Shown: one piece after another, positions 39,985 to 64,000 of the stretch
Layout of the letters: each line of letters begins with the position of its first letter
How positions within the stretch are numbered: position 1 is the first letter of the stretch
Assembly: GCF_000949635.1 (NCBI RefSeq)
Contig: NZ_BAFN01000001.1
Span: forward strand, 1,178,001 to 1,242,000
From: Candidatus Brocadia sinica JPN1
Lineage (GTDB): Bacteria; Planctomycetota; Brocadiia; Brocadiales; Brocadiaceae
Reading direction: 5' to 3'
Length of the DNA stretch: 64,000 nucleotides
Notes under the pieces: generated by a model
Told to the model about the DNA's origin: nothing
What the model saw: the letters and a program-made list of their open reading frames with translations, nothing else
Databases searched by the model: none
Program-made: the position numbers and the translations under genes

Positions 39985-40117
39985 TTGACATTTTCTCAAA
40001 AAACGTTTTAAATAACAAACGTTTAAAAAAATAAACGTTTATTCTTGTAAACACAATCTCTCACATCACCCAATTGAGAGACCCCGTTCCTCCCGTAGCG
40101 AACGAAACTGCGGGAGG
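39985..40117 (+). promoter_or_regulatory. Promoter with three phased AAACGTTT sites and two-hairpin leader (copy 1)
   Basis: TTGACA (39985-39990), a 17-bp spacer and TTAAAT (40008-40013) are overlaid by AAACGTTT at 40001, 40017 and 40033, exactly 16 bp apart. The leader then has hairpin 1 (CTCTCA 40058-40063 with TGAGAG 40075-40080), the sequence GAGAGACCCC, and hairpin 2 (CCTCCCGTAG 40089-40098 with CTGCGGGAGG 40108-40117). A second copy lies at 63834-63968 with the same order and spacing. It precedes the HTH regulator gene by about 200 bp, so autoregulation is possible. Confidence 0.75.
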
Positions 40118-40312
40118 AATATCTAGAAAGTCGCAAATCGAATATTTGCTTACTGACTTCCCATTCATACGCAAGCTCTTCATGGAAAATAAGTTGTTTC
40201 AAAAAGAAAGCGTGTTGATTCATTCCCTCTACGTACTAAGATTCGTGGAATTTACTCAGGATTACAGAGGAACTCAAGGGATTTGCGCCTGATTTTGAGT
40301 AATTAACGCTTT

Positions 40313-40882
40313 ATGTCTAACCAGGAAGAAATCACCCAATATAACATCCTCCAATCAATTGAAAATGGAGAGCAGATCTCCCAGCGCCAGCTTTCTTTGC
40401 AGTTGGGCATTAATGTAGCTTCCATAAATTTTGCTTTAAAAAAACTCACGAAGAGGGGTTTGGTGAAAATGCTGGGTGTAAACCCCAGAAGGATCCGGTA
40501 CATTCTGACTCCCAAAGGGATTGCTGAAAAAACACAGCTTGCCTATAAATTTTTTGACAGGAATTTTCATTTCTATAAGGCTGTGAGAAAAAATGTTGAA
40601 AATAAGATTGATAGCATCTCCTTTCAGGATAAAGACTCCGTTGCCATTTATGGTGTCACAGACCTCATGGAGATGGCCTACCTCGTTATCCAGGATAAAG
40701 AAATAGACCTTGTTGCGATTGTTGATAATGAAAAAAAAATCAGGATATTTGGCTATCAGGTGGTAGGAATCGAAGAAATACACAAGCACTCCCCCCGATT
40801 CCTCTTAATAACGAAAGAATTGGACGTTCATTTAGCAAAACTCATACCTGACTCTGTAGAAATTGTCGATATCAGAATTTAG
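40313..40882 (+). CDS. Winged-helix (EPS-associated MarR-like) regulator with C-terminal sensor-like domain
   Basis: A 189-residue DNA-binding protein. Residues 1-75 form a winged helix of the type called EPS-associated MarR-family regulator: YNILQSIENGEQISQRQLSL, INFALKKLTKRGLVKM, RRIRYILTPKGIAEK. The C-terminal half (VAIYGVTDLMEMAYLVI, then DLVAIVDNEKK and GYQVVGIEEI) looks like a small Rossmann-type nucleotide- or sugar-binding domain. It follows the leader module at 39985-40117 by about 200 bp. It may control exopolysaccharide or nearby sugar-nucleotide genes, possibly by binding the AAACGTTT sites, which is inference. Confidence 0.83.
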   Translation: MSNQEEITQYNILQSIENGEQISQRQLSLQLGINVASINFALKKLTKRGLVKMLGVNPRRIRYILTPKGIAEKTQLAYKFFDRNFHFYKAVRKNVENKIDSISFQDKDSVAIYGVTDLMEMAYLVIQDKEIDLVAIVDNEKKIRIFGYQVVGIEEIHKHSPRFLLITKELDVHLAKLIPDSVEIVDIRI

Positions 40883-41860: not shown

Positions 41861-43084
41861 TTAAACAGTTACCTTTTGCCTTGTTTTTTTTGGAGATCCG
41901 GATTCAATTCCTATTTCTTCGTCGGTAAGGTAACAGGCAGGATCATGTTCCCACATATCACCATAGTATGCCTCTGCCCTGGCCCTGAAATTTCCACTGC
42001 AGATATTAAGCCATCTGCATTTAGCGCAACGCCCTTTGATATATGGGTTTTTGTTCTTCAGTTTAGCCATTAACTCATTGGAAGTGTCCTCCCATATCAC
42101 GCTAAACTTCCTTTTCCTGACATTTCCGAAGGAGTATTGCCTCCAGAATTGATCAGCGTGTACCTCTCCATCCCAGCTAATACAGGCAAGTCCCTTACCG
42201 GAGCTATTCCCTTCATTCATCTGGAGGAGCTCATAGACCTCTTTTGCCCTTTTGGGGTTTTCTTTTAATAGTCGTAAATACACGTACGGACCGTCGGCAT
42301 GATTATCTACGGTGAGCACCTCTATTTTTCTGCCTTTGTCATGCGCCTCTTTGGTCTTATTGATAATAAGATCGACAACCTCACGGGTTTCTTTGTGAGA
42401 AAGGTCTTCCTCGATCAGATTGGATCCTCTCCCTGAATAGACCAGGTGATAGAAACAGACCCTTGGAATATTTTCTTTTTCAATCAATTGAAATATACCA
42501 GGGATATCATGTGCGTTCCTCTTATTAATCGTAAAACGTAAACCCACTTTAATGCCCACCGACATGCAATTTCGAATACCTTCCAATGCAGCGTCAAATG
42601 CGCCTGGAATACCACGGAAACGGTCATTCGTCTCTTTAAGACCGTCCAGACTGATCCCCACGTAGGAGAGCCCGAATTTTTTCAATTCATTTGCCTTTTC
42701 TCTGGTAATTAAAGTGCCATTCGTACTAATGACCGCCCGCAAACCCTTCTCTTTGGCATAGCCAATTAACTCAAGGAGGTCTGCCCGCATAAGGGGTTCT
42801 CCTCCAGAAAACAGAATCACAGGAGCCCCATAATCTGCAAGGTCATCTAACATTGCCTTTGCCTCATCCGTAGTCAATTCATTGGGATATTCAATATCCT
42901 TTGATTGAGAATAGCAATGAATGCATTTCAAGTTGCAGCGTTGCCCGACGTTCCATACTACAACAGGTTTTTTATCATGAGAAAATTGTAACAGATGGGA
43001 TGGCAGTTTCCTGGATTCTCTCCCATAACGTAATGCATCTGACGGTTCTACGGTGCCACAGTATAATTTTGATATACCAATCAT
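41861..43084 (-). CDS. ahbC: Radical SAM/SPASM haem-synthesis enzyme, AhbC-like (12,18-didecarboxysiroheme deacetylase)
   Basis: A 407-residue radical SAM protein. The start MIGISKLYCGTVEPSDALRY and VVVWNVGQRCNLKCIHCYSQ (CX3CX2C cluster) match AhbC/NirJ of the siroheme-dependent haem pathway. A C-terminal SPASM region follows (CAKCRWLNICSGNFRARAEA then DPACYLTDEE) with auxiliary-cluster cysteines. AhbC removes acetate side chains from didecarboxysiroheme on the way to haem b. NirJ (haem d1) is a close alternative. ATG 43084 has GGAG just upstream and suits the family; an in-frame start at 43129 is longer. Haem demand fits the multihaem cytochrome here. Confidence 0.85.
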   Translation of the reverse strand: MIGISKLYCGTVEPSDALRYGRESRKLPSHLLQFSHDKKPVVVWNVGQRCNLKCIHCYSQSKDIEYPNELTTDEAKAMLDDLADYGAPVILFSGGEPLMRADLLELIGYAKEKGLRAVISTNGTLITREKANELKKFGLSYVGISLDGLKETNDRFRGIPGAFDAALEGIRNCMSVGIKVGLRFTINKRNAHDIPGIFQLIEKENIPRVCFYHLVYSGRGSNLIEEDLSHKETREVVDLIINKTKEAHDKGRKIEVLTVDNHADGPYVYLRLLKENPKRAKEVYELLQMNEGNSSGKGLACISWDGEVHADQFWRQYSFGNVRKRKFSVIWEDTSNELMAKLKNKNPYIKGRCAKCRWLNICSGNFRARAEAYYGDMWEHDPACYLTDEEIGIESGSPKKTRQKVTV

Positions 43085-43259
43085 GTTACTCCATCTCCTG
43101 CACAGGGTATATGTGCCAAAGTAACACATGGTTACTCACCACATGTACGATTATAATGAACGGTGTAAATGCGTTAGCATAGTGCCACAGATAAAATTAT
43201 GTTAATAATTATAACTGAAAATGATTATTAAGTAAAAAAGATTTTGTGACTCCAAAAAC

Positions 43260-45461: not shown

Positions 45462-48400
45462 TTATTTTGTCTCCTTTCCCTGAGTTGGATAATTTTGTCT
45501 TGGCGATACTTGACTTGTGGCAGAAAGGCCTTTCCAGTTAAGCAACATTGGACATGCAATGAATAAGGTAGAATAGGTACCCACAATAATTCCTACTAGC
45601 ATAACAAATGCAAATCCATGAACCTCAGCCCCACCCAGGAAAAATAAGGCACACAATACTCCAATAGTCGTGACGCCTGTCAAGAGGGTACGGCTCAGGG
45701 TCTGGTTAATGCTATCGTTAACCAGCTGCGGAGTCAATATCTTGCCCCGTCCTCCCATATTTTCCCTAATCCTGTCAAATACCACAATCGTATCATTCAG
45801 AGAATAACCCACTACGGTAAGAAATGCTGCTACCATGGCGCTGTCAATCTTCATATTCCCAAATAAGTAGTCAGCAACAGCCACGGCACCAAGGGTAATC
45901 AGAATATCGTGAATAACGGCAATAATTGCAGCGGACCCAAATTTAAAGTCACCAAAGCGAAACCACACATAAAATATTGTTGCAATGCAGGAAAAGATTA
46001 CCGCCAGGATAGCACGACCCTTCATTTCACCTGCGACAGTAGCGCCGATACTCACAATCCTTTTTAGTGGCTGAGGTATTTCAAATGCACTTTTTATAGT
46101 CTTTTCCACGGTTTCTGCGTTTTGGGAGCCAAGAACAATCTTGACAGTTTGATATTCACGTCCTTCTTCCAAACCTTGTTCAAGAATATTGGGGTATCCT
46201 GCCGCGGTCAGCACCTCTTCAATAACCTCTTTTTTCAAGGGTTTTGATAACATCATACGAAATTGTGCCTGATTTGTCTTCATTATTTGAGGTGTTTCAA
46301 CGCCTGCTGTATCTCCAGAGCCCTCTTTCATCAACTCAAAGGAAACATCAACCTTTTCTTTATACCAGTTATCTTTAAATGTACGAATGATATCTTCCTT
46401 AATCTTTTCCTGAACTTTTCCTGCGCTCAGGGGCTCCATACGAATTACAAATAGTGGTGCCGGGGCATTTGTTGAATAAACATTTTTTATGGCACCTTTT
46501 ACAGACTTAATCCCACGAATCATCGTCACAAAATTTTCTTTACCGATACCCTCTTTCAATTCTATCCGAATCGCTTCATTTCCGATAATACCAACGCTCG
46601 GACGGGAGATCGTTTCCTTCAAAGTCTGCTTTATTTCCTGCAAACTCGTTCTTGTACCTTCAATTTTAAGCTTACTTGTAAGTCCCATGGGGGTTTCTTT
46701 TGACTGCCCCGTTACAGAAACATTACTAAACCCCTGCTTATTCAGTTCAAAATTGAGAATAGCAGGATCTATGGGCTCACTTGCTTCCACATCCATGAAA
46801 GGCTTAGGCGTCTGCATACCTGCGTCCTGAGCCTGTAATGTTTCAGTAATTTCACCCAAGGTTATTTTAACCTCGTGGAAAACCAGGTTGTCTTTTAGTC
46901 CATCCACAACAGAGCCAACCAGTTGCGGGCGTTTTTTAGCGTCTTCCAAACCTGAAATATTCACAATATATTCTCTGGCTTGCTGATTAGCAGGTGTTAT
47001 CGATACCACATCATCTTCACTATAACCTGCATCTTTCAAGCTTTTTTGAATGGCCACTTCATCCACTGGTTTTTGTAATTCAAGATTAAAAACCAAAGGT
47101 TCAATAAAATCAATCCTTCCAAACAGGCCTGCCTTATCCAGAACACTTTTTACATCCTCTGTAATTTTCTGTTTTACCTTTTCCTCGTGAAGCTCTTTTA
47201 TCCTGATGCCAAATTCATTTGCTGTCGATGCGAACTGAGTCAGATTTTCCTCAGACCAGATACTTTGTACCTCAGCCTCTTCATAGCCCGTCTCTGCCAA
47301 TGCAGCCCTTATAAATCCAGGTGGTGTTGGATTGTTGAGGTGTAAATGCACAAGAGTGCCACCGGTGAAATCAATATCATATTTCTTATTCCCGCGAAGA
47401 ACAAATATGGTAAGTCCCGTGATAATACATGCACCAGAAACAGCTACCAGAATAAAACGATAATTCAGAAATCTTATGTGAGGAATCCCAATCAGCTTGA
47501 ACATGGAAAAATTCCTGATCCAGCTTAAATCCATGAACAAATCATAGATAACCCTTGTCACGAAAATGGCAGTAAACAGGTTGATAATCAAACCCAGGAT
47601 TAACGTCCATGCAAATCCTTTTACAGGACCGGTACCTACAGCGGCGAGTATTACCCCGGTAATCAAGGTGGTAATATTAGAGTCGAAGATAGCAGAAAAT
47701 GCCTTTTCATATCCTGCCTTAACGGCTGCCCGGATAGGTTTCCCTTTGGCTTTTTCCTCGCGGATCCTTTCAAAAATAAGCACATTGGCATCGATTCCCA
47801 TACCAATCATGAGCACCAAACCTGCAATACCCGGAAGTGTCATAGTAGCGTCAAGCAGCGCCATTGCAGCAACTATGAGGAAGATATTTAATGCGTTTGC
47901 ACAGTTGGCAACCCAACCTATTCCCATGTAATAAATGCCGATGAAGAGAATGGCAAAAATGCCACCTATTGCTCCTGCAATCAAGCCTCTGTTAATGGAA
48001 TCCCTCCCCAAACTTGGTCCAACCATTGTTTCCATTTCAAGTTCAAGGTCAGCAGGTAAGCTTCCTGCCCGCATTATAGCAATAAGTTCATTCACTTCAT
48101 CCTGCGTGAAATTCCCTTCAATAATCCCCGCCCCGGGGATGCGGTCGCGTATAACAGGAGCCGAATACAGAATACCATCCAAGATAATCGCCAGGGGTTT
48201 GCCAATATTACGTTCTGTAATCTGCCCGAACTTGGACTTACCGATAGCGTCAAATTCAAACCCCACAACCGGTTCAATCCCTTTGCGGTCAGCATATATC
48301 CTGGATAAATGTTCTCCGGAAATTGCTATTTTATTTTGAACAAGGAACCACTTACCAGCCTCACCCTCTTCACCCTTTTTCTTTCTTAACCAGTGTTTAT

Positions 48401-48998
48401 AAAAACCGGGGACTTGTTTTCCCTCCATGGCCTCCGCATATTCCGGACCGTCACTGCTGGCTGCCAGCCTGAACTCAAGCTTGCCAAGCCGCGTAATTCG
48501 GTTCTTCAGTCCTTCTATTTCCATCCTTGTTGCCCCAGGGACCTGGATAAGTATCCGATGGCTACCCTGCTCTTGTATTCGGTACTCTATGACCCCCTGA
48601 GGGTCTATCCTCTTCTTTAGCACCTCGATAATTTCTTTTGTAATGCCCGGACGATCTTCCTTTTCATCCACCCTTACCTTATAGAGTAATTCGGAGCCAC
48701 CTTTGAGATCTAATCCAAGTTTAATTTTACCCTTTGACACATATTCAACAACCTTGCTCCGGATATTCTTGCCGTCTTTGTCTGTTTCCTCGCCGACAAT
48801 CGTTTCCCGGATAACGGGATTTGTTATGAAAAACTGTGTCCATGATTTTTCCAATGTAGTCCGTTCTACGATCTTGCCATCAATCTCTTTGACACGCTCT
48901 CTCTTCAAAACCTTTTCTGCCGGTGGATACAAAACCATGGTGCCAATAGCAATGACTACCGCAACGAGAGGTATCCTCCACCTTAAGTTTTTAATCAT
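45462..48998 (-). CDS. secDF: SecDF fusion protein translocase subunit, with enlarged periplasmic domain
   Basis: A 1178-residue fusion of SecD and SecF, which use proton motive force to pull secreted proteins through SecYEG. SecD features are GLDLKGGSELLYKV near residue 100, DEVNELIAIMRAGSLPADLELE, and the helices GIAGLVLMIGMGIDANVLIFERIREE with the DxxxxFERI motif. SecF features are GNKKYDIDFTGGTLVHLHLN near 530 and the helices from about 980, ending GYSLNDTIVVFDRIRENM. The periplasmic stretch between SecF helices 1 and 2 is about 430 residues, several times the usual P4 domain, and contains three or four copies of a P-x-I-x-L-x-GY motif. It is followed downstream by the LysM gene and preceded by yajC. 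Confidence 0.92.
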   Translation of the reverse strand: MIKNLRWRIPLVAVVIAIGTMVLYPPAEKVLKRERVKEIDGKIVERTTLEKSWTQFFITNPVIRETIVGEETDKDGKNIRSKVVEYVSKGKIKLGLDLKGGSELLYKVRVDEKEDRPGITKEIIEVLKKRIDPQGVIEYRIQEQGSHRILIQVPGATRMEIEGLKNRITRLGKLEFRLAASSDGPEYAEAMEGKQVPGFYKHWLRKKKGEEGEAGKWFLVQNKIAISGEHLSRIYADRKGIEPVVGFEFDAIGKSKFGQITERNIGKPLAIILDGILYSAPVIRDRIPGAGIIEGNFTQDEVNELIAIMRAGSLPADLELEMETMVGPSLGRDSINRGLIAGAIGGIFAILFIGIYYMGIGWVANCANALNIFLIVAAMALLDATMTLPGIAGLVLMIGMGIDANVLIFERIREEKAKGKPIRAAVKAGYEKAFSAIFDSNITTLITGVILAAVGTGPVKGFAWTLILGLIINLFTAIFVTRVIYDLFMDLSWIRNFSMFKLIGIPHIRFLNYRFILVAVSGACIITGLTIFVLRGNKKYDIDFTGGTLVHLHLNNPTPPGFIRAALAETGYEEAEVQSIWSEENLTQFASTANEFGIRIKELHEEKVKQKITEDVKSVLDKAGLFGRIDFIEPLVFNLELQKPVDEVAIQKSLKDAGYSEDDVVSITPANQQAREYIVNISGLEDAKKRPQLVGSVVDGLKDNLVFHEVKITLGEITETLQAQDAGMQTPKPFMDVEASEPIDPAILNFELNKQGFSNVSVTGQSKETPMGLTSKLKIEGTRTSLQEIKQTLKETISRPSVGIIGNEAIRIELKEGIGKENFVTMIRGIKSVKGAIKNVYSTNAPAPLFVIRMEPLSAGKVQEKIKEDIIRTFKDNWYKEKVDVSFELMKEGSGDTAGVETPQIMKTNQAQFRMMLSKPLKKEVIEEVLTAAGYPNILEQGLEEGREYQTVKIVLGSQNAETVEKTIKSAFEIPQPLKRIVSIGATVAGEMKGRAILAVIFSCIATIFYVWFRFGDFKFGSAAIIAVIHDILITLGAVAVADYLFGNMKIDSAMVAAFLTVVGYSLNDTIVVFDRIRENMGGRGKILTPQLVNDSINQTLSRTLLTGVTTIGVLCALFFLGGAEVHGFAFVMLVGIIVGTYSTLFIACPMLLNWKGLSATSQVSPRQNYPTQGKETK

Positions 48999-49517: not shown

Positions 49518-50642
<1,125 letters not shown>

Positions 50643-61714: not shown

Positions 61715-63739
61715 ATGAATAAAAAGTTTTTCATATCTTTTATTGTACTCTTGGTAAGTCACATAACCTTTTTATCACCACAAAACGCAGGTCTTCAATC
61801 CACAGAGAGCGCTTCAACATCTGTTTCAAATGCCTCAATATACAACGTCGATACTATCGGCACCACCTATAAAGAGGTGTTTGGACAATTTGGTGACAAT
61901 GCTGAACGACTCTACCAACAATATGGCACGTTTGCTCTTGAATTTTTGGAAGAGTATAAAATTGAAGGGCTTGCACTTCTGGAAAAATACGGCAGGGAAA
62001 TGGCCGACTTGTTCCCACTCTTGGATCACAGAGACATCTTTCATCTCTATAACAATCCTCATAATATCATAAATAATCTCCACATATTCTCACCCAAAGC
62101 CCTTGCTGACTTTTATAAATCCGTTGGAGACGAAGGGCTAAAATATATCGCCAGCAACCCGGAAAACTTTTTTCTTATCCGTGAAAATAAAGAGAAGGGG
62201 TTCGACTTAATCAAACTTGCCAATGAAAAGGGCGATATTGTCTTCCCCCTGGCACAAAAACATGGAATCGTTTTTGCAAAACTTTACGACGAAGACGTAT
62301 TAAACATCGTCATGAAGTTTCAGGAGGATGGCCTCCTGGCCTTGAAGGAATATGGGGAAAAGGCAAAGACCTTATTCAATCTTTTCATTGATGACGATAC
62401 CTTTTATCAGGTAATTAAAACGTACGGACACAAACAGACCATTCCCATCATTTACCTTTTTTATAATAATAAAGATTTTAACAGCCAATTATACAACTAC
62501 TTGAAGACAGCAAGCGCCTACGAATGGATAACAACCTGGTGGTATAACACAGGCACATCTACGGCAAATAGACAAGGAGATGTAACCGTACAACGTGAAA
62601 ATGCCAGGAGGGCTATTAGTCTTATTTTTGAGTTGGGAAACGATTTCATGGATAGATTTGAAATCCTCGACATCAATAATGTCAAGGAAGAAGCTATAAC
62701 CACCATTACGAACAAATTAAGGAATTTCTTTATTTCCGATGTCGAGAAGGTCAGCCGGAAAAGAATTCGACAGGAAGACATTACCTTACAGGACAAGTTA
62801 TTTGCAGGACTGGATATCCTGGGACTTGTCCCAGTTGGCAGCGGGATATCCAGGGGAGCAAAACTTGCAGTAAAGGGGGCACGTTTTACAAAGACCACAA
62901 AAGGGTTTAGTGGTCTTGTCCATTTAACCGATGATCTTGTAGCGGCCTATGGCGATGATGTCATTCAGTTTGTAGCAAAATACGGAGACGATGGAATTAA
63001 GACGTTGAAGGCAACGAACGGCAAAATCCTTAACCTCTCACAGCAATATGGAGATGATGTGGTTCGATACGTTTCTCAATATGGTAGTACTGCGGGGGAT
63101 GTAATTGAAAGATATGGTGACGATATTTTAACCCTGGCACATAAATATGGAGATGATGTTATCAAATACACTACAATCTATGGCGAAGATGGCTTCAGGG
63201 TTATCCAGAAGCATGGCAAAGATATTGTGCTTTTAGGCTCAATTTATGGCGACAATGTTATCAAATTATCCGCCCTCTACGGAGACGAAGTTATTTCGTA
63301 TGTATCCAAATATGGTACAAACGGTGTAAAAGTCATTGAAAAATATGGTAACAATGTAATTCAAATGGCAAAAAGTCACGGAGACGATGTCATTAAGTAT
63401 GTTAGTATGTACGGTGATGACGGTCTTAAGCTTGCCGGCAAAGGGAAGGCTGGCCTTCTGGTAATGCGCTTTCTGTCGCCCAGGGTATTTGCAAAATGTG
63501 TGAAGTTTATCAAATATGGCCTGGTTGCATCCATCTTGCTCATTTTTCTTACCCACCCCATTGCATTCCTATCCGGACTAATCAGCTTTCTTGCATGGCT
63601 ATTTTGTACCAGCCCCGTACTTATAATTATCATTTTATGTTTTATAGCGGTTTTTTTCCTTATAAAGTTTTTGAAGAATTTCAAGGTTTTTTTCAGACCA
63701 TTCTCGCTCATTTTACGGGTATTGAAAAGATTTGTATAA
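61715..63739 (+). CDS. Exported membrane protein built of 11-residue repeats
   Basis: A 674-residue protein of no family I recognise. A signal peptide (FFISFIVLLVSHITFLSPQ) precedes degenerate 11-residue repeats (FGDNAERLYQQ, YGTFALEFLEE, YKIEGLALLEK). A central region without clear repeats (residues about 235-405) leads to fifteen tandem units of consensus YGDDVIKYVSK (residues about 410-575). Most units are exactly 11 long and begin Y/H-G. They alternate in three kinds (VIxYVS, GxKVIEK, IxxLA), roughly a 33-residue super-repeat. Two C-terminal hydrophobic segments (LVASILLIFLTHPIAFLSGL and LIIIILCFIAVFFLIKF) anchor it. The repeats suggest amphipathic hendecad helices in a long superhelix. 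Confidence 0.8.
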   Translation: MNKKFFISFIVLLVSHITFLSPQNAGLQSTESASTSVSNASIYNVDTIGTTYKEVFGQFGDNAERLYQQYGTFALEFLEEYKIEGLALLEKYGREMADLFPLLDHRDIFHLYNNPHNIINNLHIFSPKALADFYKSVGDEGLKYIASNPENFFLIRENKEKGFDLIKLANEKGDIVFPLAQKHGIVFAKLYDEDVLNIVMKFQEDGLLALKEYGEKAKTLFNLFIDDDTFYQVIKTYGHKQTIPIIYLFYNNKDFNSQLYNYLKTASAYEWITTWWYNTGTSTANRQGDVTVQRENARRAISLIFELGNDFMDRFEILDINNVKEEAITTITNKLRNFFISDVEKVSRKRIRQEDITLQDKLFAGLDILGLVPVGSGISRGAKLAVKGARFTKTTKGFSGLVHLTDDLVAAYGDDVIQFVAKYGDDGIKTLKATNGKILNLSQQYGDDVVRYVSQYGSTAGDVIERYGDDILTLAHKYGDDVIKYTTIYGEDGFRVIQKHGKDIVLLGSIYGDNVIKLSALYGDEVISYVSKYGTNGVKVIEKYGNNVIQMAKSHGDDVIKYVSMYGDDGLKLAGKGKAGLLVMRFLSPRVFAKCVKFIKYGLVASILLIFLTHPIAFLSGLISFLAWLFCTSPVLIIIILCFIAVFFLIKFLKNFKVFFRPFSLILRVLKRFV

Positions 63740-63833: not shown

Positions 63834-63968
63834 TTGACATTTTAGCCAAAAATGTTTTGAATAATAAACGTTTAGAAAATTAAACGTTTGCCAATATAAA
63901 CAGAAATCTCTCATATCTCCCAACGAGAGACCCCGGTTCTTCCCGCAGGTTAAAACCTGCGGGAAGAA
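63834..63968 (+). promoter_or_regulatory. Promoter with phased operator sites and two-hairpin leader (copy 2)
   Basis: TTGACA (63834-63839), a 17-bp spacer and TTGAAT (63857-63862) carry AAATGTTT at 63850 and AAACGTTT at 63866 and 63882, again 16 bp apart. Hairpin 1 is CTCTC (63908-63912) with GAGAG (63925-63929). Then GAGAGACCCC leads to hairpin 2, TTCTTCCCGCAGGTT with AACCTGCGGGAAGAA (63937-63968). It matches copy 1 at 39985-40117, with compensating changes in stem 2. The gene it serves is beyond the window. Confidence 0.75.
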
Positions 63969-64000
63969 TTTAATGTGCTGCACAACCGCAATCCAATTAC

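Follow-up and report, generated by a model that had tools for sequence, protein, structure and literature searches.

What is the arrangement of promoter, operator and two-hairpin leader that stands twice in the window (the whole 64,000-nucleotide stretch of Candidatus Brocadia sinica JPN1 DNA analyzed here), which regulator reads it, and what does the leader RNA do? The initial annotation had placed the same layout at 39985 and 63834 onward, and both copies are indeed found there (Table 1). We consider it rather probable that they belong to a polysaccharide regulon repressed by a MarR-type protein and carrying a leader of the antitermination type, and that this leader, orphaned of its UpxY antiterminator in Brocadia, is still under selection.

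Anatomy of the duplicated module

Counting both strands, the window has 6 occurrences of the spaced AAACGTTT pattern, at 3 places, as against 0.00 expected from 100 shuffles, and GAGAGACCCC is seen 3 times as against 0.06 expected; these counts, together with the folding z-scores of the two leaders given below, rule out a chance origin of the module. The third GAGAGACCCC, at 49901 on the reverse strand, is unrelated to the module and lies inside an ORF (49518-50627) that is tgt-like by inspection. The window genome also carries a third promoter-operator copy (copy C, C1:2029571-2029648, reverse strand), whose leader is degraded, no longer has the hairpins, and continues into a fragment of a NusG-type gene.

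The control sites had been described as AAACGTTT boxes 16 bp apart overlapping the promoter. The spaced pattern is real, but alignment of 35 promoters, by which we defined the operator unit, led us to drop three AAACGTTT boxes in favor of a 16-bp inverted repeat, GTTT-N8-AAAC, mostly present as three units per copy that abut head to tail; the promoter position of copy A is kept across the aligned copies, a few rows of the alignment sitting one unit off (e.g. G003A, G004A, G020A, and G040A). Specifically, i) what is conserved as AAACGTTT boxes corresponds to the two junctions between units inside the array, reading AAAC before the junction and GTTT after it; ii) the apparent first box of copy A is mostly not kept elsewhere, the base before unit 1 being T in 24/35 promoters and C in 7/35; and iii) the array starts without a conserved AAAC and ends in a half-site AAAC without a conserved GTTT. 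Half-sites about one helical turn apart are the usual geometry for a winged-helix dimer, and this is the distance between the half-sites within one GTTT-N8-AAAC unit. The -10 hexamer falls under unit 1 and the expected transcription start under unit 2, so that binding across the array would be expected to prevent initiation; the 5′ ends of the two transcripts are predicted near 40020 and 63869. About two operator units are present in the Kuenenia-like copies that precede upxY. One exact-pattern operator match in G020 (C1:2476652) was set aside, a string search being negative and the locus encoding a transposase-like gene. The AACGTTTGTAGARAAAACGTTT-like repeats found at three places in G004 (one of them L190, C1:666877) are unrelated to the module, and the one examined sits inside an ORF.

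The leader behind the operator folds into two hairpins joined by a short linker, with a folding energy of -29.3 kcal/mol in copy A (z -6.65) and -33.7 kcal/mol in copy B (z -6.91), equaled by no shuffle in either case; both copies match our covariance model R1 (E 3.2e-19 and 5.2e-15, respectively). The hairpin 1 loop, usually 13 nt long, has AUCWCCCAA intact in 27/30 copies, and the linker is kept just as often. A change in stem 2 from CCTCCC/GGGAGG to CTTCCC/GGGAAG had been read as compensatory; it is real when copy B is compared with its relatives, and covariance analysis, which the annotation had proposed as a check, supports RNA pairing. In an alignment of 30 leaders and two antisense palindrome matches, which was fitted to the model and to that extent favors structure, 96.3% of cells pair and six pairs change on both sides; two-sided changes occupy 11 cells compared with 1.8 in shuffles (0/500 shuffles as high), and the covariation score is 0.125 compared with 0.014-0.056 in slid controls. 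The clearest covarying stems are CCUCCAACAG/CUGUUGGAGG in Kuenenia-like second copies, CCUCCCACAG/CUGUGGGGAGG in G018, and CUUCCC/GGGAAG in window copy B. A first small model alignment (A2) had almost no covariation, the signal appearing with the wider set alone; stem 1 has little covariation, and its register is shifted in Kuenenia-like copies.

Covariation alone would be compatible with a DNA palindrome in place of RNA hairpins, but the 38 G-U cells and the variation in loop length favor RNA. A hidden coding sequence over the hairpins was rejected, hairpin 2 loops varying from 7 to 12 nt in no multiple-of-three pattern; so was an alternative fold in which the hairpin 1 loop would pair with hairpin 2 along its 3′ arm, the loop being unchanged where the arm changes. 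An Rfam search of the window gave no match above the gathering score, ruling out a known RNA family as the identity of the leader. An intrinsic-terminator search of the window found none, hairpin 2 included; most leader copies have hairpin 2 without a U-run, and termination at hairpin 2 is thus unpredicted in most copies.

Table 1. Positions, in window coordinates, of the features of copies A and B and of the genes or gene remnants discussed with them
Feature	Position	Strand	Sequence or basis
Copy A promoter (predicted)	39985..40013	+	-35 TTGACA 39985-39990, 17-bp spacer, -10 TTAAAT 40008-40013
Copy A operator, three abutting units	40005-40020, 40021-40036, 40037-40052	+	35-copy profile; co-occurrence with MarR_EPS gene
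Copy A hairpin 1	40057..40081	+	UCUCUC/GAGAGA, loop near-invariant AUC(U/A)CCCAA; fold, covariance model, loop motif
Copy A linker	40082..40085	+	CCCC in 27/30 copies
Copy A hairpin 2	40086..40120	+	GUUCCUCCCGUAG/CUGCGGGAGGAAU, no U-run after; fold, pair counts
Decayed start (about codons 2-34) of UpxY-family nusG paralog	40137..40229	+	nucleotide local alignment
Winged-helix regulator of MarR_EPS kind, candidate repressor	40313..40882	+	TIGR04176, Pfam, predicted fold
Copy B promoter (predicted)	63834..63862	+	TTGACA 63834-63839, 17-bp spacer, TTGAAT 63857-63862
Copy B operator, three abutting units	63854-63869, 63870-63885, 63886-63901	+	35-copy profile
Copy B hairpin 1	63907..63930	+	fold, leader model match
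Copy B linker	63931..63934	+	CCCC; leader alignment
Copy B hairpin 2	63935..63970	+	compensated C-G to U-A pair, extended upper stem; fold, alignment A3

Distribution, target operons, and a candidate repressor

Convincing covariance-model matches to the leader (E below 1e-6) are present in 20/33 Brocadiaceae genomes examined; a 392-genome sample of the phylum held nothing comparable outside the family, and the weak matches in G061, G186, and G200 (all outside the family) and in G012 are taken as chance hairpins. The initial annotation had allowed that the two copies might be the only ones, lying in remnants of a mobile element; instead, about 20 family genomes carry the module, and a search of phage records and viral contigs for module copies found no match in these collections, ruling out a mobile element or phage as the source. 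The genome scan for the signature that it had suggested did recover further copies, and the genes downstream of them include polysaccharide clusters. Copy B is followed on the same strand by genes for a flippase, three sulfotransferase-type proteins (the third named by similarity to the other two), a methyltransferase, and a glycosyltransferase, and in other genomes the module precedes carbamoyltransferase, PseB-like dehydratase, GDP-mannose dehydratase, or flippase gene sets. Because the downstream gene sets differ among genomes, the module is attached to several unrelated polysaccharide clusters, as expected of the transferable operator-leader system that had been postulated.

Three other genes in the window deserve mention. 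A 674-aa protein with many degenerate YGDDVIKYVSxYG-type repeats is encoded just upstream of copy B (61715-63739, forward strand); it has no match in Pfam or NCBIfam, and a protein resembling it is found near copy A in G006. The gene adjoining the copy A operon (41861-43129, reverse strand) encodes a radical SAM protein that matches the model for AhbC (12,18-didecarboxysiroheme deacetylase, TIGR04546) with 740.9 bits, above the cut-off. A 1178-aa ORF (45462-48998, reverse strand) resembles, by inspection only, a translocase in which SecD and SecF are fused, with additional repeated segments in its interior.

The neighboring winged-helix gene had been put forward as a possible controller of the module, and co-occurrence, parallel decay, and operator-only promoters all support it as a candidate. 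Like MarR_EPS proteins, its product matches TIGR04176 over an N-terminal winged helix (E 1.2e-19), and the gene lies in a polysaccharide regulon; unlike them, it scores 70.3 bits against a curated cut-off of 88, and we regard it as related to MarR_EPS rather than file it as a TIGR04176 member. Pfam HTH_24 (34.2 bits) and MarR (26.1 bits) both match above cut-off, and residues 1-93 have fold matches to MarR and PadR chains, placing the predicted winged-helix DNA-binding domain among MarR-type regulators. Also unlike MarR_EPS is the extra C-terminal alpha/beta domain (residues about 100-189) of the 189-aa protein; fold searches are dominated by the N-terminal domain. A CoA_binding hint for the C-terminal domain, which comes from a distant Candidatus Anammoxibacter homolog alone (E 7e-4, below cut-off), suggests that this domain may sense a small ligand.

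Close MarR_EPS homologs are present in 20 family genomes. The exact operator array occurs in module context in 16/20 genomes with the MarR_EPS gene and in 0/13 without it (Fisher P 5e-6, a value that overstates the evidence since the genomes are related and the counts were assembled by hand); the four exceptions are variant arrays in G011 and G043, a contig cut in G016, and a divergent two-unit array in G020. Among Brocadia genomes without an intact MarR_EPS gene, G004 and G007 have a mutated or incomplete array and G010 has none. Two genomes, G018 and G011, have the operator alone, without hairpins, directly before the MarR_EPS gene, and in G018 operator and leader stand before upxY, separately from this operator-only promoter. 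These operator-only promoters indicate that the operator is separable from the leader, and they point to autorepression.

A separate question from that of the leader is whether the 16-bp array might be read by some other regulator, as the score of the MarR_EPS protein below the TIGR04176 cut-off would allow; we think this unlikely, since array and MarR gene co-occur and decay together and operator-only promoters stand where autorepression would put them, directly before the MarR gene. Most likely, then, it is a MarR_EPS-type protein that binds the operator.

UpxY behind the leader, and its loss in Brocadia

In ten genomes of other genera (G017, G018, G019, G020, G023, G040, G041, G043, G045, and G047) an intact NusG paralog of 168-169 aa directly follows hairpin 2, and two representatives match NF033644 (UpxY) with 123.6 and 136.6 bits, above the curated cut-off of 100. 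The MarR_EPS gene follows upxY in 9/10 of these genomes and lies elsewhere in G018. Outside Brocadia the leader is found in 10/12 paralog-bearing genomes compared with 0/10 others (P 1e-4, which again overstates the evidence, the genomes being related and some of them incomplete); G021 has a NusG paralog and lacks this leader, as do the genomes of family f4. Three UpxY-bearing genomes (G040, G041, and G018) have a second leader before an unlinked polysaccharide region, in which a GDP-mannose dehydratase gene comes first in G041 and G018 (with NeuB further on in G018), and which in G040 reaches a flippase.

Two of the three Kuenenia-like (g11) upxY copies, L128 (G020) and L176 (G040), continue from hairpin 2 into a U6 run (TTTTTT) directly before the upxY start; hairpin and U6 together scored terminator-like in G040 and are visible in the sequence of G020. 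They are likely to attenuate expression of the antiterminator gene itself. The published role of UpxY proteins is to keep transcription from ending prematurely in the 5′ leaders ahead of upxY (PMC7819879), and the position of the U6 run in G020 and G040 fits such an action.

Comparison with known systems reveals likenesses and differences in each case: i) as in the capsular polysaccharide operons of Bacteroides, where UpxY acts in the 5′ leader (PMC7819879), upxY follows the leader and often precedes polysaccharide genes, and the intact neighbors in other genera exceed the UpxY cut-off, but here the hosts are anammox Planctomycetes, the partner gene is MarR_EPS instead of an upxZ, the leader is also found at unlinked operons, and the paralog is absent from the genus of the window; ii) as with LoaP and the dfn hairpin of Bacillus velezensis, a small hairpin is followed in two Kuenenia-like genomes by a hairpin with a U-run, and a NusG paralog is linked to long biosynthetic operons (PMC12691694), but there is no UNCG tetraloop, the loop being of the AUCWCCCAA type and usually 13 nt, and the representatives score 73.8 and 89.7 bits, below the LoaP cut-off of 125; and iii) as with RfaH and ops/JUMPStart, a NusG paralog goes with a common leader signal at several unlinked polysaccharide operons, but ops is a signal in non-template DNA whereas RNA pairing covaries here, and the representatives score 94.4 and 97.4 bits, below the RfaH cut-off of 144.5.

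Each of the 11 Brocadia genomes has just one NusG-domain match. The window genome has no intact UpxY paralog, its sole NusG-domain match lying upstream of an L11 (rplK-like) gene. Fragments of upxY stand behind the leader or promoter in six copies, and sister remnants at the same place are clearer than that of the window; the latter aligns with intact genes at local alignment scores of 51-74, reached by 0/300 shuffles in each comparison. Since UpxY is absent from all 11 Brocadia genomes, it cannot be what maintains the window leader. In seven Brocadia A copies, invariant columns number 50/56 in hairpins and linker compared with 26/117 just downstream (P 1.2e-17), and in three B copies 57/60 compared with 50/118 (P 4.3e-13); the leader is degrading in G002B and G007. 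Because the hairpins are conserved after UpxY loss, the leader would appear to be selected for a UpxY-free role, or for one shared with general factors. Leader conservation without UpxY in Brocadia is, as we read these genomes, the least explained and the most interesting point of the analysis.

Proposed mechanism, alternatives, and meaning

We propose that a polysaccharide regulon of the Brocadiaceae has a common control region, a sigma-70-type promoter on which three tandem 16-bp operators are superimposed; that a MarR_EPS-type protein most likely occupies the operators and would keep transcription from starting at its own gene and at polysaccharide operons; that the first roughly 100 nt of the transcript would form the two-hairpin leader (loop AUCWCCCAA, linker CCCC) and act at elongation; that in several genera outside Brocadia this leader is the likely cis-signal of the UpxY-family NusG paralog encoded directly behind it, which would let RNA polymerase traverse long polysaccharide operons; and that in Brocadia, where upxY has been lost, the leader has been kept by selection, probably still serving transcript elongation or stability. 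The anatomy, distribution, and covariation of the module, the linkage to upxY, the loss of that gene, and the conservation of the leader in its absence are observed; binding of the repressor, antitermination, and whatever the leader does in Brocadia are inferred.

The strongest competitor makes the leader a put-like processive antiterminator that depends on no protein, or on general factors only, such as NusA or the housekeeping NusG; UpxY, where present, would have been an added partner. This would account for strong conservation of the leader in a genus without the NusG paralog and for its place before long polysaccharide gene clusters, and the conserved single-stranded loop and linker do resemble a recognition surface; however, outside Brocadia the leader is tied to UpxY-bearing genomes, and G002B demonstrates that it can decay, so that we give this explanation a minor share of our confidence. 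The hairpins might instead only lend stability to the mRNA at its 5′ end or adjust translation, in a manner unrelated to elongation, given that they are strong, lie near the predicted 5′ end, and include a GGGAGG in the 3′ arm of hairpin 2 that resembles a ribosome-binding site. The distance from this GGAGG to the start of upxY is long, however (about 15 nt in G019, among UpxY-bearing copies), and in copy B the first start codon comes about 215 nt past hairpin 2; a pure stabilizer would need neither an invariant loop nor an invariant linker, and Kuenenia-like second copies change the GCGGG of stem 2 while keeping the pairing. We therefore regard a stabilizing or translational role as distinctly improbable. 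Least probable is that the Brocadia leader is a non-functional relic of a recently lost upxY. In favor of a relic, the upxY remnant is still recognizable, the hairpins are gone from copy C, and decay is under way in G002B and G007; against it, conservation of the hairpin columns exceeds that of the adjoining remnant several-fold in the seven species that supplied the A copies, and one pair in copy B is compensated.

We wish to add that the UpxY-orphaned regulon favored here leaves room for a bolder version, which we offer tentatively and think rather unlikely, in which the Brocadia leader works on its own as an RNA for processive antitermination or elongation control of polysaccharide operons, needs no dedicated NusG paralog, and evolved from a UpxY-dependent leader; if true, it would be an RNA antiterminator that has outlived its antiterminator protein.

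How specialized NusG paralogs are recruited when their genes lie within the operons they target has been described as unknown (PMC7593976). A covarying leader tied to a UpxY-family protein, and present at more than one operon per genome, would make recruitment directly testable with short templates. Brocadia would offer a natural case of a leader RNA persisting after loss of the protein, and for anammox bacteria, the granules and biofilms of which are important in wastewater treatment, the module as a whole marks out a concrete candidate regulon of polysaccharide synthesis.
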